The translations under genes were made by a program, and so were the position numbers. Under the pieces are notes generated by a model that saw only the letters and a list, made by a program, of their open reading frames with translations, made no database searches and had not been told where the DNA came from. A stretch of 64,000 nt of DNA from a virus: positions 1 through 64,000 of the IMG/VR virus record IMGVR_UViG_3300007539_000011; one strand, given 5' to 3'. Positions 6,963-61,010 of this stretch are shown in pieces. How positions within the stretch are numbered: position 1 is the first letter of the stretch; every line of letters starts with the position of its first letter.

Positions 6963-7151
6963 GTGACATTCAAAGAATGGCTTAAGCATAAAAGCATTCA
7001 AGAAGCCAACTCTGCAGTGGTTAAGATTAACGGCAGAGAGATTAAAGCGTCCTCAGTCGAGATAAAAGATGGGCACATATACGTTGACGGAGTGTATGTG
7101 TGCCCATCTAAGGTAGAGAGCGTCTCCTTGAAAGATCCTAATAAAAGTTGA
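6963..7151 (+). CDS. Small unknown protein
   Basis: A 62-residue reading using GTG 6963. The product (TFKEWLKHKSIQEAN..., then GHIYVDGVYVCPSKVES) looks like a small beta-rich domain and matches no family I know. No ribosome binding site precedes this GTG. The same frame is open back to base 6864 and encodes a hydrophobic stretch (GFFNALFFWVTIIV), and a good SD, AAAGGAG at 6862-6868, lies 7 bases before an ATC codon at 6876. The real protein may therefore be about 91 residues with a membrane segment and a non-AUG start. The 3' end overlaps the terminase gene on the other strand by 14 bases. Confidence 0.5.
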   Translation: MTFKEWLKHKSIQEANSAVVKINGREIKASSVEIKDGHIYVDGVYVCPSKVESVSLKDPNKS

Positions 7152-8700
7152 GATCTTTCATCATGACCTTAGCCGCCACCCATGCGAATACTTGAGCGTG
7201 AAAGGCGTCATCCGGGTTAGAAGGACTATGAGTCCAAATCTTCTTTCCTGATGGGGTAGTCTCTTCATAGAGAGCCAGCATGTCCTTAAAGGCCATTCCC
7301 ATCAAATCCCTAGAGAGGTACTTAACTCTCCGCTTCTTAATAGTCATCATATAGTTGTCTATAAGGGTGGTCTTATCTGCTAAGTACCTATCTACTCCAT
7401 TCCACTTGAGCGGAGTTGCACTGGATCCGTATTGCAGCTGAGCCACCTTGGCTTTGCCGCTCACTTTTTTAGCTAGCAGCGAGTTAGCAAGGGCGCCCTC
7501 TCCCGCGTCTCCTACTATAAATGATGCTCCAAACTTGCTCATGTGCTTAGCTATGTCTTCAACTACTTCTACGGGGTTTTGATCTGGGTATATCTTAAAC
7601 CACCTAGTTGTTACACTCCCTGCATGGTCTACCCCAAAGATCCATGCTGCAGTTCTAGACTTACCCTTAGTTCCTCCTCCGCTCCAGTCTATACCTCCGA
7701 CTGTGCACATGAAGGGCCCTACAGGGGGCTTTTCAAATGATGCTAGGCCGCAACACTTATTGAGGTCTTCTATGGATAGCAGCCTAGTACCTAGAGAGTC
7801 ACTTACCCCTAGTACCTCGTTCTTGAATTTAGACTCAGTGTACAGGTTCAACTTCTCTAGTATTCTGCCCCACCTGGTCTGGTCTTCTATGTTCTGCGGT
7901 AGTATTAGCTGAGGTACGTGGAATCCTTTCATCCTAAAAAAAGCGGGGTCGTCAGGGGTGGCGTCCTTAGGTATAGGGTGCATGTCCACCCAGCGCCCTT
8001 CTCTTGGGTTCACGTACTTGGAGCAGTGCAGGCACTCTATTCCCTTCTTTCCTATACCCTTTGTGGTTCTATAAAAGCTGTACTTACCGCATCCTGAGCA
8101 CTTTACGCACCATTCGCTCTGTGTAGAGTTGTCCCACAGAAACTGTATAGTGTTCTCCATGGTAAGAGGGGTCCCCATATAGCTTGTGTATGCAAATGGA
8201 GAGTTAGCCAAGCACTCGTTAATAACAGGCACTACCTCATCGTAGATAATGTTCTGTACCTCATCGTAAACCACTCTATCCGCAGATATACCTCGCGCAC
8301 GATCTGGATTATCTGTGGCATAAGAGAATAGAAGTTCGGAGCCGTTAGCTAGGATCTTCAGAAATACGTTGTCTGAAGCTCCCGCTGCGAAAGCCTTAAT
8401 GTCTGGGCTATGCCTGAGAATCTTTCCTACTCTCGTGGTAGAAAAGGTTGAGGTCTGCTTCAGCGATGGGGATATGTACAAGGTCTTAAAGAAGGGCGTA
8501 CATACCGCATCAACGATGCTAAAGCCCGCGGCTGATACGGATTTACCCACCTGTCGTCCGCACATCAAGATAGAGCTTCTATAATCACCAGAGTACAGCT
8601 GGTGGTAAAACGGGTAGTCTTGCAGGCTAAACCGAGAGCCATCTAGCCATAGTAAATTCTCGGCAACACTCAGTCTGGAGCTAGTAATAGTTATGTCCAA
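7138..8700 (-). CDS. Terminase large subunit, GpA-like
   Basis: The DNA packaging motor and nuclease. An N-terminal ATPase has Walker A CGRQVGKS and Walker B DRVVYDEVQ. A zinc-ribbon-like insertion follows (CSGCGKY ... CLHCSKY), as seen in lambda GpA-type terminases. The C-terminal RNase H-like nuclease has GGIDWSGGGTKGKS (first acidic residue), VGDAGEGALANSLL and a late DDAFHAQVFAW. I chose TTG 8700 because GAGG lies 8 bases upstream and the product then begins just before the adapter segment AENLLWLDGSRF; the frame itself is open to an ATG at 8781 that would run deep into the opposite gene. No small terminase is in view. Confidence 0.9.
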   Translation of the reverse strand: MDITITSSRLSVAENLLWLDGSRFSLQDYPFYHQLYSGDYRSSILMCGRQVGKSVSAAGFSIVDAVCTPFFKTLYISPSLKQTSTFSTTRVGKILRHSPDIKAFAAGASDNVFLKILANGSELLFSYATDNPDRARGISADRVVYDEVQNIIYDEVVPVINECLANSPFAYTSYMGTPLTMENTIQFLWDNSTQSEWCVKCSGCGKYSFYRTTKGIGKKGIECLHCSKYVNPREGRWVDMHPIPKDATPDDPAFFRMKGFHVPQLILPQNIEDQTRWGRILEKLNLYTESKFKNEVLGVSDSLGTRLLSIEDLNKCCGLASFEKPPVGPFMCTVGGIDWSGGGTKGKSRTAAWIFGVDHAGSVTTRWFKIYPDQNPVEVVEDIAKHMSKFGASFIVGDAGEGALANSLLAKKVSGKAKVAQLQYGSSATPLKWNGVDRYLADKTTLIDNYMMTIKKRRVKYLSRDLMGMAFKDMLALYEETTPSGKKIWTHSPSNPDDAFHAQVFAWVAAKVMMKDLNFY

Positions 8701-9958
8701 GATTGATACCTCATCTAATAGAAACGGCGCTATTGCCGAATACTTCCAGTCTATGGGGATTCTTCCTACAGGGGTGAGCACCCTGGCACCGATGATCTAC
8801 ATCAGCTGGAAAGCTGGGCTCGTACCAATGTTGGTTGGTGCTGCTGGCTCAGGCAAGACAGAGATTATCAAACAACTCTGCAAGGTAACAGGGGCAGACC
8901 TGCTACACATCTTCGTAGCACACGTGGGGTCCGAGGAGATCAAGGGCCTCTTCTTCCGTAATGAAGAGTGCGATAAGACCTACAAAGTCTTAGTAAATGA
9001 GGAGATCCACGACGCCGTAAAGAAGGCTACTGACACGGGGACTCCTCTAGTAATCTTCCTCGACGAGCTGAATCGCGCAAGCGATCAAGATAGCCTAAAT
9101 GCTATCTTCAGCATGATATCTAAGAGAGGTGTTCCGGGTATGGACTTCCCGGACAACATCCACTTCGTGGCGGCGGGTAACCCTCCCACAGGTAAGTACT
9201 CTGTGGCGCAGATGGCGGACGACGCGTTTGTTCGTCGCCTGCTATGGATGGGTGTTACGGTGGACCCGGCCTCCTGGCTAAAGTATGCAAGAGGAGAGAA
9301 GCTCTCCGTTAATCTCCCTGCGCCAAAGAAAGGCTTTGAGCTTGTAGAGCTGCCCCTTCACGCTAAGGTACAGAGCTACATCCAAGCTAGGCCGGACGAC
9401 CTCTTTTCCGAAGCTATGGCCAATCAGGGCAAGCCTCACCCTAATCCTGCCTCGTGGACTAGGGTATCTAACGTAGTAAAGACCCTTGAGGCGCACAAGG
9501 TCAAGTCTCCTCAAGTATTTAAGACCCTCATCTCCGGTCTGATTGGTGATGCTATCTGCAATGGCTTCTACGCTAGCTATATCGATGGGCGCTTGCACAT
9601 CCCACCAGAGGATATTCTCGAAGGAGATTGGTCCAAGGTAGAGAAACGCCTGCGCACTATCAGGGAAGAGAATCGGCATGATCTTATGGGGGAGACGATT
9701 AAGGCCGTCTGCTTCAAGATCAAACTTGATAGGCCTGATGCTACCCCGGAGCTTGCTGGAAATCTGGTGTCCTTCCTCGATCAACTCACGGAGGACCAGC
9801 AAGGGACTTTCTCGTCTTTGCTAGGAGTGTCAGACATTCCAGAGAGCGAGAGACTAGCTTACCTGCAGTACAAGAGCTCCCTCACAAAAGAGATGCAAAA
9901 GGACAGCAGATTTATTAAGATCTCTACCAACCTTCTGGATCTTCAAGGAGCCGAATGA
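8693..9958 (+). CDS. MoxR-type AAA+ ATPase
   Basis: A single AAA+ (AAA_5/MoxR) module of 421 residues. Walker A GAAGSGKTE is at residues 49-57, Walker B IFLDELNRA near 121-129, a sensor-like FVAAGNPP follows, and a lid domain fills the C-terminus. MoxR ATPases usually act with a VWA-domain partner to remodel protein or metal complexes; a VWA protein with a metallopeptidase motif is encoded at 13814 in the same orientation. The ATG lies 8 bases inside the start of the divergent terminase gene. A second ATG at 8753 is possible but has no SD. The stop overlaps the helicase start (ATGA). Confidence 0.88.
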   Translation: MSKIDTSSNRNGAIAEYFQSMGILPTGVSTLAPMIYISWKAGLVPMLVGAAGSGKTEIIKQLCKVTGADLLHIFVAHVGSEEIKGLFFRNEECDKTYKVLVNEEIHDAVKKATDTGTPLVIFLDELNRASDQDSLNAIFSMISKRGVPGMDFPDNIHFVAAGNPPTGKYSVAQMADDAFVRRLLWMGVTVDPASWLKYARGEKLSVNLPAPKKGFELVELPLHAKVQSYIQARPDDLFSEAMANQGKPHPNPASWTRVSNVVKTLEAHKVKSPQVFKTLISGLIGDAICNGFYASYIDGRLHIPPEDILEGDWSKVEKRLRTIREENRHDLMGETIKAVCFKIKLDRPDATPELAGNLVSFLDQLTEDQQGTFSSLLGVSDIPESERLAYLQYKSSLTKEMQKDSRFIKISTNLLDLQGAE

Positions 9959-20833: not shown

Positions 20834-20871
20834 CGCAAAACGGGGGGCCTAAATTGGCATAAGAATATGAA
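20834..20871 (+). promoter_or_regulatory. Promoter block shared with 44023-44060
   Basis: CGCAAAAC at 20834-20841 and CATAAGAATATG at 20858-20869 recur with identical 24-base spacing at 44023 and 44047, where a + operon begins. Bases between are partly conserved (G.GGG and TG). A TTGGCA resembling a -35 box lies at 20854, and the paired site has CTGACA at the same place. It sits just after a terminator and before the structured RNA, as expected for that RNA's own promoter. Confidence 0.65.
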
Positions 20872-20872
20872 G

Positions 20873-21590
20873 GTAATCTTTAAGCCTTCCACAAAGGCTT
20901 CTGGTCAAGATTGAATTCTACGACCAGATCAATTTGTGCTTAATCAACCAGGGCCCAAGCCAGGTAGCCAATCCTGTGCAGTGGCCATATGTAGCGCGAC
21001 ACGCGCTAGAGGAGAGAGAAATGCAGAAGTTCGTGACAAGCGGTGTTAGGGGAGGGAAAGATGTATCGAATATCCTTTGGGCTCTCCGGGAGGCCAGGCG
21101 GGCGATTCAGGGCGTAACGGTAAAGATCCCTTTAAAATCGAAGCAGATCCCGGCCTACAAGGCAGCTGAAGATGAGATCAAAAAATACTGCGGCCAGCAC
21201 GCCGCAGATCAATTTTCAGAATTGCTGTGGGAGTTCGGCCAGGACTCCCTGGAGGGAAGCCCCGAAGGCCCCCGCCTTAAGGCGGGTCGGGTGACCTTTT
21301 CTTCCTTTTCAGTATACCTGAGCCCGAACCCTGGATGGGCGGGTATATCGGTCCAAGTAAGCAACCCGAAAGGGTTGCTTAGAGAGGGATTCGACGGGCT
21401 CGAAAAGAGCCTTAAATCGCTCAGCGAAGAACAAAATGTGGGGGTCCATGACCCAGCCGTTGAAGGGCTGGGGATAGAGAACGCTCGAAGAACCCAGGCA
21501 GGGTTCAACTGCCAGAAGAAGGAGGAGGAGGGTTAGCCCTCCGCCTCCTTCTTCTGTCGGTTGGCCCCGCGCAACCCGTTTTTTTTTAGC
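20873..21590 (+). ncRNA. Large structured RNA of about 0.7 kb, class unknown
   Basis: The stretch between a promoter block and a terminator is packed with stems. Examples: AAGCCTT/AAGGCTT (20882/20894), CTGGTC/GACCAG (20901/20922), TAGCGCG-aca-CGCGCTA (20992/21002), CTGCGGC/GCCGCAG (21188/21201), CCCGCC-ttaa-GGCGGG (21271/21281) inside CCCGA/TCGGG, TATACC/GGTATA (21313/21342), a perfect 10-bp stem closed by a GAAA tetraloop (21358-21381), GGCTC/GAGCC (21397/21407), CCCAGCC/GGCTGGG (21452/21466), and a 20-base arm pairing at 19 positions (21513/21537). Size and density recall large ornate phage RNAs such as GOLLD or ROOL, but I cannot assign it. A 200-codon frame crosses it and is probably fortuitous. 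The position right behind the RT operon makes it a candidate RT partner. Confidence 0.7.
21558..21587 (+). terminator. Intrinsic terminator of the structured RNA
   Basis: CGGTTG (21558-21563) pairs with CAACC (21572-21576) around a GC-rich loop, followed by nine T (21579-21587). It closes the structured RNA transcript 3 bases before the stop codon of the convergent tail gene. Confidence 0.7.
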
Positions 21591-44022: not shown

Positions 44023-44060
44023 CGCAAAACAGAGGGTTCAGTCTGACATAAGAATATGTC
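44023..44060 (+). promoter_or_regulatory. Promoter block shared with 20834-20871
   Basis: CGCAAAAC at 44023-44030 and CATAAGAATATG at 44047-44058, the same 24-base spacing as upstream of the structured RNA. CTGACA at 44043 and ATTATA at 44066, 17 bases apart, could be sigma-70 -35 and -10 boxes. It precedes the 44093 operon. Confidence 0.65.
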
Positions 44061-44092
44061 GGGGCATTATAGCCCATTATAAGGAGAATCAG

Positions 44093-44506
44093 ATGGCACG
44101 TCTGACCTACCTTAATAAAGATCTCGCCGGTATTGGCGGGTCAAACGCGCTTACGCGCGTAAACATTGAGATCCATAAGCTTGGTCTCGATGTAGAGTAC
44201 CACCTCGATGCACTGCTCTCTGCCGAGCGGGACATTGAAGACGGGTACTCAGCCCTCGTTGGAGAGTGGCACTTCCACAACAAGTGGATCAAAGTGCTTA
44301 GCTCCAGGCTCATTAAGCTAAAGGCTAAGGCGAAATCTATTCGTGAAAGCCTTGAGCGAGCAATCGAGGAGGAGCCTCCTGTTCGCACGGGTAGGCTTAC
44401 TCGTGAGTGGCTTCGCTATGAGAGGGGTTGTGGCTCTAAGCCCGATCAAACTCGTAGCCGAGTTGCCCGCATTCGCTCCATCGAGCGCAGGGTGGTGCGT
44501 CGATGA
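44093..44506 (+). CDS. Unknown basic helical protein
   Basis: A 137-residue protein with strong SD (AAGGAG, 6 bases before ATG). It is helical and very basic at the C-terminus (RLTREWLRYERGCGSKPDQT, RSRVARIRSIERRVVRR), suggesting nucleic acid or ribosome binding. First gene of a four-gene + operon whose codon use (more CTC, CGT, CGC, TCC) differs from the surrounding late genes, consistent with early, highly translated genes. Confidence 0.65.
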   Translation: MARLTYLNKDLAGIGGSNALTRVNIEIHKLGLDVEYHLDALLSAERDIEDGYSALVGEWHFHNKWIKVLSSRLIKLKAKAKSIRESLERAIEEEPPVRTGRLTREWLRYERGCGSKPDQTRSRVARIRSIERRVVRR

Positions 44507-44814
44507 GTGAGAGAGGGTGGGATCTCGAAACTCCCATCTTGGTCTTTCTAGTCGGGGTAGCCCTCGTTGGTCTTGGCATTGGCCTCCTCGGGATGGCTAA
44601 GGAAGACCAAGCTCCCTCGCAGCCGGCGGAGCCTCGCTTCTACGAGGTTCACTGCGAGGGTCCTGATGGGTGGGAGAAGTTCACCGTAGACTTCAATGCT
44701 TACGGTAAGCCTCGCTCCTTTCGTCAGGGCGTGATGCGCTTTGAGACTACTCAAGGCGTTGAGGTGCATGGCAGTAACTGTATCGCCAAGCACCCAGCGG
44801 AGTGGCGTCGATGA
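44503..44814 (+). CDS. Small membrane-anchored protein
   Basis: A 103-residue protein coupled to the gene before by an ATGA overlap. One N-terminal membrane segment (PILVFLVGVALVGLGIGLLG) is followed by a small soluble domain with two cysteines (VHCEGPDGWEKFTVDF, GVEVHGSNCIAKH). No family is recognised. It may act at the host membrane early in infection. Confidence 0.62.
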   Translation: MSERGWDLETPILVFLVGVALVGLGIGLLGMAKEDQAPSQPAEPRFYEVHCEGPDGWEKFTVDFNAYGKPRSFRQGVMRFETTQGVEVHGSNCIAKHPAEWRR

Positions 44815-45203
44815 TCGGTGTTGCGGGTGCCGGAAAGACACAGGTTGTTAAAAGCCTCCAGGGGCAGCCTGTAGATTTCTCTCCGCCTCGTCAGCCCTTC
44901 TCTCGGGTATTTGTATCAGGAATACCAATGAGCGAGGAGGACACAGTTAGGCATGAGGACAATATGTGCCTCTCTAACTTCGACGAGGCGGAGGAGGAAC
45001 TCCGGAAAGCGCTTATGCTCTTGGCCGAGGCTAAGAAGCTCGCGCAGGCCGGGGATCTTCCGGGAGCGAATGAATCTCTTCATCGGGTAAAGAGCCATGC
45101 TTCTGAAGCCAAAGAGTACGCTCAAGGCTGTAGGGAGTGGGTTCAGGGTGTGCCCTTGGGTACAGCTCTGCCCGAAGATATAGTTGACTACGAGGACGCT
45201 TAG
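44811..45203 (+). CDS. Unknown helical protein
   Basis: A 130-residue reading from ATG 44811 (ATGA overlap). GVAGAGKTQVV near the N-terminus has the form of a Walker A loop but no other P-loop NTPase motif follows. ATG 44928, with AGGA upstream, would give a 91-residue protein lacking that part. The body is helical (NFDEAEEELRKALMLLAEAK, ESLHRVKSHASEAKEYAQG). Confidence 0.58.
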   Translation: MIGVAGAGKTQVVKSLQGQPVDFSPPRQPFSRVFVSGIPMSEEDTVRHEDNMCLSNFDEAEEELRKALMLLAEAKKLAQAGDLPGANESLHRVKSHASEAKEYAQGCREWVQGVPLGTALPEDIVDYEDA

Positions 45204-45500
45204 ATGCAGTTCGTAGTCTCTGTCTCTTGGAGAGAAAATCTCCGTAAGCTTATATCCGTCCTTGTTAACCTAGAAGAGGATAAGCTTGCGGAGAAAGAGG
45301 CCAAGGAGTTCGAGCTTGCTCACTTCTACCTCGAAGGCTTCTACAAGAAGCATCTGCCCTTCGCACTAGACACTATTCTAGATAAAAGTGAAGGGCAGGT
45401 ACTGAAGTCCTACGTGTGGCGCGTAGAGGCTGCGAATCAAACCGCTGGGGTATGGGAAGTAGAAAAGGCTCTAGCAGCCCTTACTGGCCCCCTACCCTAG
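45204..45500 (+). CDS. Small unknown helical protein
   Basis: A 98-residue protein that begins on the base after the previous stop. Helical and charged (ENLRKLISVLVNLEEDKLAE, KEAKEFELAHFYLEGFYKKH). Last gene of the 44093 operon; an intrinsic terminator overlaps its stop codon. No function inferred. Confidence 0.62.
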   Translation: MQFVVSVSWRENLRKLISVLVNLEEDKLAEKEAKEFELAHFYLEGFYKKHLPFALDTILDKSEGQVLKSYVWRVEAANQTAGVWEVEKALAALTGPLP

Positions 45501-53459: not shown

Positions 53460-54095
53460 ATGTGGTCTGATAAGGGTAAACGTTCGTGGCTGGCCAGCTT
53501 TGTGTTCCTGACACTCGTGGTTGGCCTTATATTCTTTCTAACCTTCCTAGAGGTTCCTGATAAAAATAAAGACCTCATCACCAGCATTATAGGGATGATC
53601 GTCGGCAGCATCAGCACTGTGATCTCGATCTTTGTAGGTAGAGATCCGGATGATGTCAAAGACCTAAAAGAGGCTATACAAGAGCTTAACAGTGACCGTA
53701 ATGCGCTCATAGAGAGGCTGCGAGACGCCCAGCTAGATAAAGAGACTCTGCGCAAGCAGCTTGAGGCACTACAGACTCAGGTGATTGAGAGGCTCAGTAT
53801 CTTTGTTGGAGAACACAGGCTAGCCGAAGTGGGCGGAGCAGACATACAGTTAAGCCCAGAGGTAGAGCGCTGGATGCCTAAGCCGCACGAGACGCCCATG
53901 CCTAACTCGGTAAGTCCGCTACCACGAAAGCATACTCAGCGCAACCCTACTCCTCCGGTGCCCTCTGGAGGCAGAGTCCCCTCAACGCAGCCTCCAGGGT
54001 CTAGCCCGGCGGTCCAGCCTCAAAAAGCTCCTAAGCCAGAGAAGCAAGAGCCCCTTGATGATTGGATGGATCTCTTTGGTAAGCCAGAGGACTAG
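53460..54095 (+). CDS. Holin-like two-membrane-segment protein
   Basis: A 211-residue protein with two N-terminal membrane segments (SFVFLTLVVGLIFFLTFLEV and SIIGMIVGSISTVISIFVG) separated by a short charged turn, then a coiled coil (DLKEAIQELNSDRNALIERL) and a long proline-rich, probably disordered tail ending in DDWMDLFGKPED. Two membrane segments plus charged tail and the adjacent 31-residue membrane peptide recall phage holin modules, but the tail is long for a holin and no endolysin is nearby. Function is a guess. Confidence 0.6.
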   Translation: MWSDKGKRSWLASFVFLTLVVGLIFFLTFLEVPDKNKDLITSIIGMIVGSISTVISIFVGRDPDDVKDLKEAIQELNSDRNALIERLRDAQLDKETLRKQLEALQTQVIERLSIFVGEHRLAEVGGADIQLSPEVERWMPKPHETPMPNSVSPLPRKHTQRNPTPPVPSGGRVPSTQPPGSSPAVQPQKAPKPEKQEPLDDWMDLFGKPED

Positions 54096-54130
54096 CCTAT
54101 CCTTTGGTCTTTAACCAGGGGAGGCTAATC

Positions 54131-54226
54131 ATGGATGTAATACTTCCAGTATCTGTACTGGCTGCCGCCTACTGCAGCATTATTCTAGAAGCTGTTAAAG
54201 AGTACCGTAGGCGGTCTGAAAGCTAA
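54131..54226 (+). CDS. Very small membrane peptide
   Basis: A 31-residue peptide: one hydrophobic helix (ILPVSVLAAAYCSIILEAVK) followed by a basic tail (EYRRRSES). GGGGAGG lies 6 bases before the ATG, a strong SD, and the gene follows the holin-like gene by 35 bases. It may be a lysis partner or antiholin-like peptide; unproven. Confidence 0.6.
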   Translation: MDVILPVSVLAAAYCSIILEAVKEYRRRSES

Positions 54227-54235
54227 AAAATAGAG

Positions 54236-54718
54236 TTACTCCTCAGAAGAGTTAACTCTACTCATAATCTCTAGGTCCTCTGCGCTAAGAGAAGCTCTTA
54301 GGATCTTATGTAAGGCCTCCGAGTGGGGGCCTGGAACCTCCGGTTCCTGCGTCCACGCTAGCGGAGCGTCCTGAGCCTTTAATACTGGCTCTAAGTCTGG
54401 CTCTAAGCCTGTATCTAATATCTCAGGAAGAAAGTCCTCGGTATCCAGAGGAGTATCTTCCTCAGGTGTACTTTCCGGAATCCTTGCCGCGGATAATACG
54501 CCTGGGTTGAACTCACGTAATGCGATGTAGATGAGCGTACGTATAACCAGGCTAGGAGTGACCTTAAAGTCAGACTCTAACGCCAACGCATCGGCTAGGT
54601 TACCCAGTTCTTCGCGCTGAGCGCGGGTTAATCGAAAAGAAGTGACGGTAATATCGCCGTGGGCCGTAAGTTTAAGCTGTCGGTCCATATCTAACAATAG
54701 TTTTCTGGTTATCTTCAA
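54236..54718 (-). CDS. Ribbon-helix-helix-like DNA-binding protein
   Basis: A 160-residue protein. Residues 23-69 fit a ribbon-helix-helix: strand ITVTSFRL, helix RAQREELGNLADALA, turn, helix SLVIRTLIYIALREF. The C-terminal half is acidic and proline-rich (ESTPEEDTPLDTEDF). It is the first gene left of the ACTTTCCG palindrome region and reads away from it, so it may bind those sites as an initiator or repressor; that link is inferred from position. Confidence 0.62.
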   Translation of the reverse strand: MKITRKLLLDMDRQLKLTAHGDITVTSFRLTRAQREELGNLADALALESDFKVTPSLVIRTLIYIALREFNPGVLSAARIPESTPEEDTPLDTEDFLPEILDTGLEPDLEPVLKAQDAPLAWTQEPEVPGPHSEALHKILRASLSAEDLEIMSRVNSSEE

Positions 54719-54862
54719 GGCTAGGAGCCTCCTCTCTCGTTTTGCATTATTGCAGTACTTTAAGTAGCAATATCAGATTGTATTATGTGTAGTTTAGCAT
54801 ACTTAAGTCTAAAATACAAAAGTTCAGTGTCGATACTTTCCGGAAAATAGATGTTCAGTAGT

Positions 54863-54886
54863 AAAATGCATTACGTAATGCATTTT
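54863..54886. repeat. Perfect 24-bp palindrome
   Basis: The 24 bases centred on TTACGTAA (54870-54877 core, arms AAAATGCA and TGCATTTT) equal their own reverse complement. It may be an operator or form a cruciform. It lies at the left edge of the ACTTTCCG array. Confidence 0.85.
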
Positions 54887-54946
54887 TGCTACATCTAGGT
54901 TACACACACATGTAACTAAACGTCGTAGACTGTATACAATTTCTGC

Positions 54947-54972
54947 TACATCTATGTATACTTTCCGTTTTT
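54947..54972 (+). repeat. Left arm of a 26-bp perfect inverted repeat
   Basis: TACATCTATGTATACTTTCC plus GTTTTT; its exact reverse complement is at 55546-55571, about 575 bases away. The arms include one ACTTTCCG site each and define the symmetry of the whole region around 55259. Confidence 0.9.
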
Positions 54973-55545
54973 CCGTTATACTTTCCGGAAAATAGGTCTG
55001 AATAATATCATACACTTAACTGTACTTTCCGTTTTTTCCGCCTATTTTCCGAAATGGATTTCCTTTTTAATATCATATAGTTACAGCGAAAAATGGCCTA
55101 CTTTCCGTTTTTTTCGGAAAATACCTATATATAGGTACTGAGCCCTACTTTTTTTTTCACTCGCCAAAGGGGCCCGTGAGGGGTACTAAAAATAGTTTAA
55201 TTTTTTTACTTCCTGTATAGGTGTTCAGGTGAGTATATATCGTACTACCTACTGTAATAACCCTTAGCTTTGGACTTAGGCTTAAGTTTGCATGTAAGGG
55301 CAGTAGTTGGACTCCAGAGTATACACAAAGAGTCAACAACTAACTTAAAAAACCAGTAATTCCCTCGCGCGTAACGTATATATAGGTATATAAGTATTTC
55401 CCTGAAAAAGAGGAAAATAGGGTAAAATAGGGGCTAACCCCATAGAATCACTGGGAAAATACTTTCCGGAAAGTATAAACAGAAAACGGAAAGTAGCCGT
55501 AAGTCTATGTAATTGTTAAGATCTATTTTCCGGAAAGTATGGACC

Positions 55546-55679: not shown

Positions 55680-56690
55680 TCACCTAAATACAACGCTAAG
55701 AGTCCGGTTCCGTATGTTGGCCAGCCTGTCACAGTCATATACTGACAGCTCAACCCTGGAGGCTAGCCCATAGCCTCCAGCCTTCGACCAGATATCAAAG
55801 GCGTCCTCCGGATGCGGGTACTCGGTAGCGGTATGCAGTCGGCCTCTTACGACTTCATGCTCGCCCTCTAGCTTTGGCTCACCGTTGCACAGCAGCTTAT
55901 CTATTGTCATAGTGAAGACCTCCAGCAGCATGTTCCTCTTATGACGTTCGCTGCCGCCGCCAATCTTAGAGAAGTCATCTTCAGATATACTGCCGTAGAT
56001 CAGCTTACTGTAGTAGATAGAGTGAAAGAACTCTGAGCACGTACTTAAGGGTTTCTTCCAAAGTCTATCCTCTGAAGGTATATCCTCTACAAACTCCCCG
56101 CCCTCTCTGTCGCACATATAGACTTTGATCTTTACGGTGTCAGTCTCTGCGTCCCAGAAAAGATCGGAGATTGTCTTACGACCCTCTATGTAGCCCACAC
56201 CCTTATTTACTGTGTAGAGTACGCTTCCATTCGGATATATATGAAAGACGCAGAACCTACTCTCTAGCTGAGGGAGCGCCTTGAGGCACACAGCTCTGCC
56301 GTAGGTATATACCGGAAGTTCATGCATCGGAGTCTCCCGGTAGTAAGGGGACACTGCAGGTACGTAATACAGTATGTTTCCGCACGGATCATTAGAGTCC
56401 CTCTCATCCAGGTACTCTCCTACGTACTCATCTAGGTCCCACTCGTTACTAGGGTCGAACATAGCGATGTACTTAGGGTCGTCCGCAGCAGCCCAACCCG
56501 AGTAGATCGGATCTCTTAGCTCAGGCTTCCAGTAGCTTGCTTCCGCAGAGTAGACAGCACTCTTTACTGCTTTGATACTACTTCCACCTCTAACGTTATC
56601 TCTAGCGATAACTGGCATTCTATTATCTTGAGTAAACGCAAACCCATATAGGCTCGCCATAAAAGGGCTGAAATCAAATGGTCTTTTCAC
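55680..56690 (-). CDS. Unknown protein between the palindrome region and the second structured RNA
   Basis: A 336-residue protein not recognised. GTG 56690 is chosen because GGAG lies 8 bases upstream; the frame runs on to ATG 56750, but that ATG directly abuts an RNA hairpin and has no SD. The product is rich in Tyr, Asp and Glu (EWDLDEYVGEYLDERDSNDP, SRFCVFHIYPNGSVLYTVNK), with no catalytic motif I can identify. Confidence 0.62.
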   Translation of the reverse strand: MKRPFDFSPFMASLYGFAFTQDNRMPVIARDNVRGGSSIKAVKSAVYSAEASYWKPELRDPIYSGWAAADDPKYIAMFDPSNEWDLDEYVGEYLDERDSNDPCGNILYYVPAVSPYYRETPMHELPVYTYGRAVCLKALPQLESRFCVFHIYPNGSVLYTVNKGVGYIEGRKTISDLFWDAETDTVKIKVYMCDREGGEFVEDIPSEDRLWKKPLSTCSEFFHSIYYSKLIYGSISEDDFSKIGGGSERHKRNMLLEVFTMTIDKLLCNGEPKLEGEHEVVRGRLHTATEYPHPEDAFDIWSKAGGYGLASRVELSVYDCDRLANIRNRTLSVVFR

Positions 56691-56711
56691 TGCTAACTCT
56701 CCGTATATACT

Positions 56712-57746
56712 AAAAAAAAAGATCTCTCTAGGTGTAGCGTCCGGTGACATTCCCAGTCGTGGCGACTGGGAGATGTTGCCTAGCAGATAGAAAAGTTACG
56801 CCTAAGCGTCAGTTTTCTGTCTGAGCAAATGCGCCTGTTAGTACTTATAGCCGGAGTTACCCCGACCTAGCATCAGAGATCTTCTAAGTGTACGTGTGTA
56901 CCTGTAGAGGTATTTTCTACGGGTCTCTTTCACTTTACCTAGCGGCGACGTACCTTCGCCATAACTCAAGATCCTCTAAGCGTAGCTTTCCCTGAGGACA
57001 GAGCTCGATTGCGCGAGCTCAGGCCGTAGGGGACGGGGCAACTACTACTCCAGGGTAGTGCCCCGCTCTGCTACTATACGAGCTTAAACCAGTGGTTGAT
57101 GTAACCTCAACCTGATTCTCAGGGTTCTCGAATTTAGTTTAGTGGACTGATTTTATCTCAGCAGTATTACAACAGAATCCTCTAGATGTAGCTGTTCGTG
57201 CCAGGTGGTCGTCTCTACCGACCAAAACCTGGAACAGACGGACATATGTCAATATGTCCGGGTGCCGAACGTACTGCCAATAACAGAGTGTCTGAAGTAG
57301 CTTCAGACTAACCTCAGGATTCTTACATCGCCCTCTAGTTGCTAGGTTTCTTATCCGGCGGTGGACACACGGGTCACCCGCCGGATAAGGCATCGTTCTT
57401 TCGTCCTCCGAAAAATGATGGAATCCTAACGCCTCGACTATAGCTATAGCTGAAGTGGCTCCAGCCTAATATCAGGGCGGGTGCCTCTACTTTCTAGCTT
57501 AAATTTATTAATGGCTAATTAATAAATTTAGCAAGTAGTGAGCAGAGACCTGCACATTGTATTAGCCTCGGTGTGCCTCCGAGTTGTACCTCAGGCAGCC
57601 GCCTACATGTCTAAGTAGACTAGCATTATATTGCGAGATCTTAGAACGACCTCCAGCAGGGGTAACCCCTGCCTGCATCGCGGCATAAAGTGGTACTAGC
57701 TTTACCGGGACGTGACCCCGGCGGCTCTATTAGTAAGGAGAGCCTG
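56712..57746. ncRNA. Second large structured RNA region, about 1 kb, class unknown
   Basis: No plausible gene; instead about 20 stems. Clearest: 9 bp at 56751/56763; 11 bp with one G-U at 56784/56813 enclosing ACGC/GCGT; 8 bp at 56901/56916; GAGCTCG/CGAGCTC (57001/57014); GGGGC+ACTAC/GTAGT+GCCCC (57035/57055); CCAGGT+GGTCG/CGACC+ACCTGG (57201-57232); CGGACATA/TATGTCCG (57239/57253); GTCTGAAG/CTTCAGAC (57290/57301); TTATCCGGCGG with complement (57351/57378); 13 bp at 57500/57518 flanked by CTACTT/AAGTAG; GCAGGGG/CCCCTGC (57656/57666). Flanking genes are on the minus strand, but the wobble pairs in two stems are G-U only if the plus strand is transcribed, and TATACT at 56706 could be a plus -10 box. 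Strand is left open. Confidence 0.7.
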
Positions 57747-58421
57747 CTAGGTCCCTCCCTCTACTAACGAGAGAAGGATCTGCTCCGGGTGGACTACTAC
57801 TCCGGAAGCAGAGAACTCAAGGGTAAGAGACCGGCCGTCCAGCCCATCGTCCCGAAGGTGATGGTACATGTCCTTGTCGATCTTTCTTCCTCGGTAGAAG
57901 TACTCTACCTTTAGCCCAGACAGCGGGTCAAGCTCTGATCGACCGGACCCGGCAACCTCCTCAGAAGCGGTTCCCTCCAGGCGAGAGATGACGCTATTGC
58001 AGGCCTCAACAAGCTTAGGAGTCGCTCCCCACACGTAGGCTCCCATGTAGGTGAGGTACCCCTTCTTGCTGAGCCAAGAGAAGGCGTGAGTGCCGTCATG
58101 GCCAGCCGTCTCATTTCTATGCCTGTGAGAGCTATCGCAGAGAAACTCATCATTCAGCATCGGGAAGATCTCATCATCCACGTTCTGCCGGATCTGAGGC
58201 CCCATGTACCCTCTAGTACGTAGAAAGGTAGTCGCGCCATTGATCATCTGAATAAGGATACTGGCGAGACCTGTGGCTGCTGCCCAGGACTGTGTGTTTG
58301 TGAACTCGTCACAAATGATATGGGCAATGACCTCTTCTTGTAGGATAGTGGAGTGCTCCTCATTACTCATATCGACTCTGATACCAGAGTTATTAAGAGA
58401 TATAGGCTGTGCGTTAGGCAT
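57747..58421 (-). CDS. Unknown protein
   Basis: A 224-residue protein, not recognised (VIAHIICDEFTNTQSWAAAT, SRLEGTASEEVAGSGRSELD, LKVEYFYRGRKIDKDMYHHL). The start is placed at ATG 58421, preceded by GGAGG; the frame is open to GTG 58604, but that upstream part is full of inverted repeats and may be leader RNA. The SD can pair with CCTTCC in CCTTCCAGCTGGAGG, so translation may be controlled by folding. The 3' end directly abuts the structured RNA region. Confidence 0.58.
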   Translation of the reverse strand: MPNAQPISLNNSGIRVDMSNEEHSTILQEEVIAHIICDEFTNTQSWAAATGLASILIQMINGATTFLRTRGYMGPQIRQNVDDEIFPMLNDEFLCDSSHRHRNETAGHDGTHAFSWLSKKGYLTYMGAYVWGATPKLVEACNSVISRLEGTASEEVAGSGRSELDPLSGLKVEYFYRGRKIDKDMYHHLRDDGLDGRSLTLEFSASGVVVHPEQILLSLVEGGT

Positions 58422-58424
58422 AGC

Positions 58425-58640
58425 GTTTTTTCCTCCAGCTGGAAGGATATAGGGTATAATCTCCCCTAGGTATAGTTGGCGGATCCTTCCGCGCGGAGGT
58501 TTGCGTAGGAATACGTAGTATTCTCGTAGCAACTCGTAGCTTCGGAGGGAGAGCTGACTGTACTGTGAAGTCAACGTTCCGGAAAGCTGAGGTAACCTCA
58601 GCACTATCTCGGGAGATTGACCTGAGCTAAGGCGCCCAGA
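58425..58640 (-). promoter_or_regulatory. Hairpin-rich leader before the 58421 gene
   Basis: Minus strand shows GCTGAGGT-ACCTCAGC (near 58587-58603), GAATAC/GTATTC, TCCGCGCGGA and CCTTCCAGCTGGAGG, the last one covering the SD. This suggests a folded leader that can hide the ribosome binding site. The alternative is that the bases are coding for an N-terminal extension. Confidence 0.4.
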
Positions 58641-58658
58641 TCAAATTCTTATAACAAA

Positions 58659-59060
58659 TTAATCCTGATTTTTGCGCGCAGGCATCTTTGTCTTTGCGCC
58701 TACTTTTCTGTAAGCCTCATCAAGCACATCTACTCCGAGGGCAGACGACTTCCAGTAATGGTCCGGTGCGGTCAGAGCCCAAGCAATCAGGGTAGTTACT
58801 CTCTCTACGTACTCAGAGTCCTCAACCATCATATAGTAAGGGACAAGGATCTTCAGGTCCATGCCATCACCGTCCTCTGAGTCCCCATAGGTTACAACTA
58901 GGTCCTGCTTTGAGACTTGAGCTATGTTTGGGTCTACGGCACCCAATAGCTTTCTAAGGGTCTCTAATATCCTAAGAAAGAAAAGTATAACTCTGAACTT
59001 AATTACTTTTATTACGCTTTCTTTTTCTGGCACGCCTAGCCTCCTTGTTCCTCTGCTCAT
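58659..59060 (-). CDS. Unknown small protein
   Basis: A reading of 133 residues. The first ~20 overlap the 58999 gene and may be fortuitous; no clear SD marks any start. The body has a hydrophobic/basic helix (VIKFRVILFFLRILETLRKL) and a soluble part (DLKILVPYYMMVEDSEYVER, ALTAPDHYWKSSALGVDVLD). Not recognised. Confidence 0.55.
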   Translation of the reverse strand: MSRGTRRLGVPEKESVIKVIKFRVILFFLRILETLRKLLGAVDPNIAQVSKQDLVVTYGDSEDGDGMDLKILVPYYMMVEDSEYVERVTTLIAWALTAPDHYWKSSALGVDVLDEAYRKVGAKTKMPARKNQD

Positions 59061-60827: not shown

Positions 60828-60936
60828 GCACTCCTCCTTTAAGCGTAAAGTAGTTGCGGCTGACTGTTACTCTTCTATGAGCACGCCACCAGCCTGTACG
60901 ATTTGAGCTGCTTCTTCACACCGTAGGCAACTATAC

Positions 60937-61008
60937 TGGGCCGCCCGGGACTCGAACCCGGAACCAATGGATTAAAAGTCCACTGCTCTACCATTGAGCT
61001 AGCAGCCC
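60937..61008 (-). tRNA. tRNA-Lys (UUU)
   Basis: Minus strand folds as a complete cloverleaf: acceptor GGGCTGC/GCGGCCC, D arm GCTC/GAGC, anticodon stem GTGGA/TCCAT with loop CTTTTAA (anticodon TTT), T arm CCGGG-TTCGAGT-CCCGG. CCA is not encoded. It reads AAA/AAG, codons used often in this genome. Confidence 0.95.
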
Positions 61009-61010
61009 AT

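Follow-up and report, generated by a model that had tools for sequence, protein, structure and literature searches.

Sponge RNAs of the CsrB/RsmZ type are hairpin arrays in which the stems vary and the loop motif is constant, by which GGA is presented to CsrA, and the pRNA of phage phi29 (174 nt) multimerises into a ring on the packaging motor. Among the large phage RNAs, GOLLD is phage-encoded, around or above 800 nt in length, ornate and located near tRNA genes, ROOL is located near tRNA islands and is of unknown function, and both of them form cages (PMC12286853). The predicted RNA described here is encoded on the minus strand of the window, that is, the whole stretch of 64,000 nt that was analysed as part of a virus record of 97,789 bases (G000). 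It resembles GOLLD in being phage-encoded, of this size range, ornate and close to tRNA genes, and ROOL in being a large phage RNA near tRNA genes. In contrast to GOLLD, its domains follow one another in a chain in which a GNNAC-capped hairpin recurs, a universally conserved 3' region was not seen, and the usual site of the RNAs of its clade is beside the terminase gene; in contrast to ROOL, the RNAs of the clade are variable in span and in hairpin number; and neither family gave an Rfam match. The hairpin array, the constant loop and the variable stems are shared with the CsrB/RsmZ-type RNAs, whereas the loop is GNNAC instead of GGA and the domains are larger and multi-branched. The likeness to the phi29 pRNA, a packaging-linked phage RNA, lies in the usual position beside the terminase gene, but the RNAs of the clade are each one long chain with a variable number of modules.

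The intergenic region (56694-57746) is flanked by the minus-strand genes P0002 and P0001 (Table 1). Codon scores were calculated for the six frames of 56712-57746 and ranged from -0.12 to -1.02, as in wrong-frame DNA (mean -0.57) and unlike genes (mean 0.35, 5th percentile 0.20). This stretch is without coding signal in any frame, in agreement with the first-pass annotation, which had called it a gene-free kilobase, and both P0001 and P0002 are coding. A protein-coding or decayed gene at 56712-57746 was excluded by the codon scores together with the fold. The only notable ORF inside the RNA comprises 84 codons (57393-57139, minus) with a codon score of -0.11, in the non-coding range; GGAGGA is located 10 nt 5' of its ATG, within a hairpin loop, and the ORF may be a translated short one despite this score. 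The RNA likely extends from 57746, directly after the stop codon of P0002, to a run of nine A at 56712-56720, which is read as U9 on the minus strand and for which a simple terminator scan gave no call.

Table 1. Positions of the predicted RNA, its parts and its neighbours in the window (closing helices are given as 5' strand/3' strand; p, pair probability).
Feature	Position	Strand	Observation
Promoter-like motif	58648..58677	-	GCGCAAAAATCAGGATTAATTTGTTATAAG; loose match to the motif of the relatives
Hairpin-rich leader upstream of P0002	58422..58645	-	directly after the motif; GUUAC hairpin at 58602-58586
P0002, protein-coding gene that separates the leader from the RNA	57747..58421	-	probable ATG at 58421 after GGAGG; codon score 0.31
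17-bp hairpin over the stop codon of P0002, bordering the RNA on its 5' side	57729..57768	-	p 0.83-0.91
Predicted giant structured noncoding RNA, body	56712..57746	-	codon scores; fold z -7.2; GNNAC cluster unique in the window
Domain	57586..57696	-	closing GUACC/GGUAC and GCCGC/GCGGC; p 0.97-0.98
Domain	57314..57429	-	closing UUAGGAUUC/GAAUCCUGA; p 0.90
Domain	56963..57134	-	closing AAUUCGAGA/UCUUGAGUU; p 0.96
3' domain	56718..56884	-	closing GAAGAUCUCU/AGAGAUCUUU; p 0.84
U9 tract, terminator-like 3' end	56712..56720	-	directly after the last closing helix; from the sequence
Hairpin 1	57655..57673	-	loop GUUAC
Hairpin 2	57566..57584	-	loop GGCAC inside A.A mismatch
Hairpin 3	57448..57466	-	loop GCCAC
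Hairpin 4	57290..57308	-	loop GCUAC
Hairpin 5	57094..57112	-	GUUAC in 7-nt loop
Hairpin 6	56943..56961	-	GGUAC in 7-nt loop
Hairpin 7	56849..56867	-	loop GUAAC; alternative pairing competes
Hairpin 8	56751..56771	-	loop GCCAC; core CCCAGTCGCCNCGACTGGG common to the RNA of phage G030
P0001, next gene downstream of the RNA	55680..56693	-	GTG start, GGAG before it; codon score 0.33

The minimum free energy of a 1047-nt stretch was -392 kcal/mol on the minus strand and -392 kcal/mol on the plus strand, compared with -322 kcal/mol in dinucleotide shuffles (z -7.2; about -7 for either strand), and 300-nt windows inside the RNA reached fold z values down to -6.6, with the flanking genes near 0. The minus-strand prediction comprised dozens of helices (3-12 bp), many with a high probability and several nested, and the abundance of hairpins noticed earlier was thus confirmed against shuffled sequences. 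The predicted architecture begins with the hairpin over the stop codon, continues with several multi-branched domains (closing helices of 5-10 bp) and ends with the last closing helix, which runs into nine U. Since the fold energy is equal on both strands, the minus strand was assigned according to the GNNAC loop signature, the orientation of the flanking genes, the U tract and the upstream motif.

Eight minus-strand hairpins with the common loop G-N-N-A-C are spread evenly along the RNA (89-196 nt apart), and their stems are mutually unrelated in sequence yet paired; as many as four pair types occur at a single position (three to four at several stem positions of hairpins 1 and 3-7). At least seven pairs, the closing pair included, are formed in five of the eight, all within 0.9 kb; elsewhere in the window such hairpins numbered at most one per 1035 nt, in 100 shuffles at most two, and the plus strand of the RNA stretch held one GNNAC hairpin only. 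Copies of a mobile repeat were excluded, as the stems have no common sequence.

No match to P0002 was found in PHROGs, Pfam, the phage collection or 50 related records, and homologues of the flanking proteins were found in an identical contig only and not in the profile libraries. Because the flanking proteins have no relatives, the terminase of the window (7138-8781, minus; alignment A1) was used as the probe by which the clade was reached. BLAST of the RNA against the 50 related records gave one notable match, a 26-nt hairpin in G030 (E 3e-4, one genome), the 19-nt core of which occurs in viral_contigs in two phages only (the window phage and G030), and BLAST against phages gave nothing of use. 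Beyond identical contigs, such as G001 (IMGVR_UViG_3300025674_000019, 133,289 bases), which is identical to G000 across the RNA region and has the RNA at 65145-66179, no clearly alignable homologue of the window RNA was found, and its kinship to the elements described below therefore rests on design and context.

In whole-relative scans, the main site of these elements was the gap between the terminase and DNA polymerase genes, on the polymerase strand, and gap RNAs of this design were predicted in G012, G011, G032, G009, G015, G022, G033, G023, G027 and others. In the 33 terminase/polymerase gaps of at least 100 nt, which were chosen without regard to hairpins, GNNAC accounted for 70 of the 130 triloop hairpins, as against 104 of 1378 in the other DNA examined (odds ratio 14, p 7e-37), and the GNYAC form preferred the polymerase strand (40:13). 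Clusters of at least four GNNAC hairpins in 900 nt were found in seven independent places among the loci of at least 9 kb examined, namely the window RNA, the gaps of G011, G012, G022 and G032, and sites outside the gap in G026 and G034. Regions of relatives that appeared structured by fold scans alone were partly coding and were not counted as evidence. Judged by their predicted folds and loops, elements designed like the window RNA are present in other phages of its terminase clade. The terminase clade had no confirmed relative in GTDB genomes, and in the nearest cultured phages by terminase (Salmonella phage Arash and Vibrio phage D181, about 31%) packed genes follow the terminase, with no such gap.

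The off-site copies in G026, G030 and G034 have tRNA or tmRNA genes within about 5 kb, as has the window RNA, for which the nearest tRNA gene is tRNA-Lys (60936-61009) at 3.2 kb. The distance of about 3 kb given in the first-pass annotation was accurate, and the tRNA neighbourhood regarded there as a GOLLD-like trait was found both for the window RNA and for the off-site copies in the relatives. The largest off-site copy seen, in G026 (L149, 5780-8300, minus), measures 2.5 kb and has ten GNNAC hairpins, two of which are identical over 21 nt, and that in G030 is a stretch of about 1 kb with fold z down to -11.7 and a repeated linker of its own (GTAGCAGACGAG or a close variant). The off-site RNA of G030 is located about 4 kb upstream of a block of 38 tRNA genes, which together with a tmRNA gene occupy L138 1049-5724 and L114 7135-7470; the tmRNA gene of G034 is at L200 15829-16207.

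Covariation was counted with two sequences per test among the RNAs of relatives, that of the window RNA being internal only, and the G027/G023 pair was left out as too divergent. When the pairs predicted for G003 were followed in G002, 77 were unchanged, 10 were changed on one side and still paired, 10 were double-changed and paired, and 4 were broken, in comparison with 1.6 double changes and 14.8 broken pairs expected from shuffles. The formal count on the G003/G002 alignment (A2) was six double-changed pairs, of which a single hairpin held five, with 98% of the cells paired as against 38-44% when the alignment was slid. In these two close relatives triloop hairpins are present with loops mostly other than GNNAC. 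From G027 to G025, 10 double changes were recorded versus 2.2 expected, with no excess from G025 to G027. The compensatory changes support a predicted RNA structure in the family, rather than each helix.

In the nearest relatives (G002, G003, G009, G011, G012, G015 and G019), the RNA is headed by a promoter-like motif, CGCAAAA-N16-GTATAAG, which overlaps the polymerase gene at its end. G012 has a single copy in 72 kb, the one at the RNA, and in G007 a motif of this type is found near the terminase end. Loose matches in the window numbered three (20834 +, 44022 + and 58677 -), compared with 0.17 per shuffle. P0002 separates the motif at 58677 from the body of the RNA in the window phage, and the leader between motif and P0002 is strongly folded (z -5.4 for 58350-58649, minus) and non-coding (codon score 0.03 for 58422-58604), and may form the 5' part of one transcript with the RNA. 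Hairpin-rich genes with long ORFs also follow the same motif at 44023-45500 (+) in the window and at 131952 in G001, 23902 in G011 and 25438 in G007, and a small group of strongly folded transcripts seems to be marked by motifs of this type.

The minus strand of 56712-57746 thus very probably encodes a noncoding, heavily folded RNA. A giant structured RNA had been proposed at the outset; the fold statistics, the absent coding signal and the strand-specific loop signature bear this out, with further support from the relatives, which show compensatory changes and have a promoter-like motif of their own. No report of this RNA family was found in the open full-text literature (partial coverage), in which GOLLD, ROOL and OLE are the nearest kind, and on the sequence evidence the family looks new, being so far undescribed and carried by many uncultured phages beside the terminase or near tRNA genes.

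As to its function, we tentatively prefer, at somewhat less than even confidence, that the RNA is a multivalent platform or decoy, the capped hairpins of which are recognised by a protein. The promoter-like motif at 58677, which is phage-specific, would drive its transcription (together with P0002), or a start nearer to the RNA would be used; the transcript would end at the U9 tract, and the giant RNA would accumulate during infection. Its domains, of unrelated sequence, would repeatedly display the same small G-NNA-C-capped hairpin as a site for one RNA-binding protein of phage or host. With several of its copies bound, this protein would be either collected in a single particle or withdrawn from circulation, following the CsrB/CsrA logic. 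A polyvalent partner for one protein is suggested by the constant small loop, the arbitrary stems, the many copies and the free variation of copy number, and because the hairpin number varies from 1 to 10 between phages, a dose-like valency would fit better than a fixed machine. CsrB-type families gave no Rfam match for the window RNA, in which the repeated loop is GNNAC and not the GGA presented to CsrA. A wider reading, possible but held with more reserve, is that uncultured tailed phages of one large clade share a new modular class of RNA, of which only the tiny capped hairpin is kept, domain number and length being free; its phage-specific promoter would be located next to the packaging gene, extra copies would occur at tRNA islands, and it would serve as a polyvalent scaffold in packaging or host takeover. 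As the functions of GOLLD and ROOL are unknown, a second independent design of giant RNA with a simple repeated signature would provide a clear handle, namely a small hairpin to serve as bait, a single promoter-like motif and dozens of natural variants in which the hairpins number 1 to 10, and through the family the use that phages make of kilobase RNAs may come to light.

Assembly of the RNA alone is unlikely, though the best placed of the alternatives; in this case the folded RNA would form a defined multimeric particle in the manner of GOLLD and ROOL, and the capped hairpins would be its contacts. The size, the ornate fold and the tRNA/tmRNA vicinity of the four off-site copies are reminiscent of those RNAs; however, unlike in a fixed cage, the span and the number of modules vary widely between gaps, from about 0.3 kb with one hairpin to about 2 kb with ten, and most copies are located at the terminase and not at tRNAs. 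Covariance-model scans also speak against it: at gathering score, neither GOLLD, ROOL and OLE nor any other Rfam family matched in the window, in the off-site loci of G030 and G026 or in the gaps of the relatives, and at E<=10 none matched within 56600-57850, so that the kinship to GOLLD, ROOL or OLE raised in the first-pass annotation was not upheld. The RNA is not GOLLD or ROOL and is placed among the large ornate phage RNAs.

The position between two minus-strand genes, and the unusual folding of other transcripts behind the same motif, including coding ones, would also suit a structured spacer or UTR of a P0002-P0001 transcript, which would govern translation or stability and have no RNA function of its own. 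This is improbable, because in the relatives the element alone follows the motif and lies tail to tail with the terminase gene, with no gene directly downstream on the RNA strand, and because the structured coding transcripts showed no clusters of this loop signature. Still less probable is a packaging RNA that aids the DNA-packaging motor like the phi29 pRNA, with one motor subunit per module. Its usual site adjoins the large terminase gene, and it has a promoter-like motif of its own, but the gene across the gap is that of DNA polymerase, the number of hairpins is not a constant 5 or 6, the gap is almost absent in several members of the clade, and the window RNA is 48 kb from the terminase, the terminase gap of this phage being about 264 nt and without GNNAC hairpins. 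A function at the DNA level (e.g. a replication start or packaging site) or decayed repeats, to which the palindromes at the terminase/polymerase junction could be ascribed, is very improbable, since stems without common sequence are neither repeat copies nor sequence-specific sites, and the head motif, the strand bias and the compensatory changes suit RNA better.

Besides 56712-57746, other hairpin-rich stretches, some of them coding, are present in the same phage. In 54000-55200, few long ORFs were found with a fold z of about -2 to -4.5, and no GNNAC hairpin cluster. The short intergenic stretch downstream of P0001 (55525-55665) carries several ACTTTCCG/CGGAAAGT motifs in both orientations. 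The element at 20834-21580 (+) is preceded by a motif of the same class as that at 58677 (CGCAAAAC...GGCATAAG), and its ORF of 171 codons (21022-21536), which follows a GGAGAGAG-like (Shine-Dalgarno-like) site, has a non-coding codon score of -0.53; this element could be a structured mRNA or a noncoding RNA.
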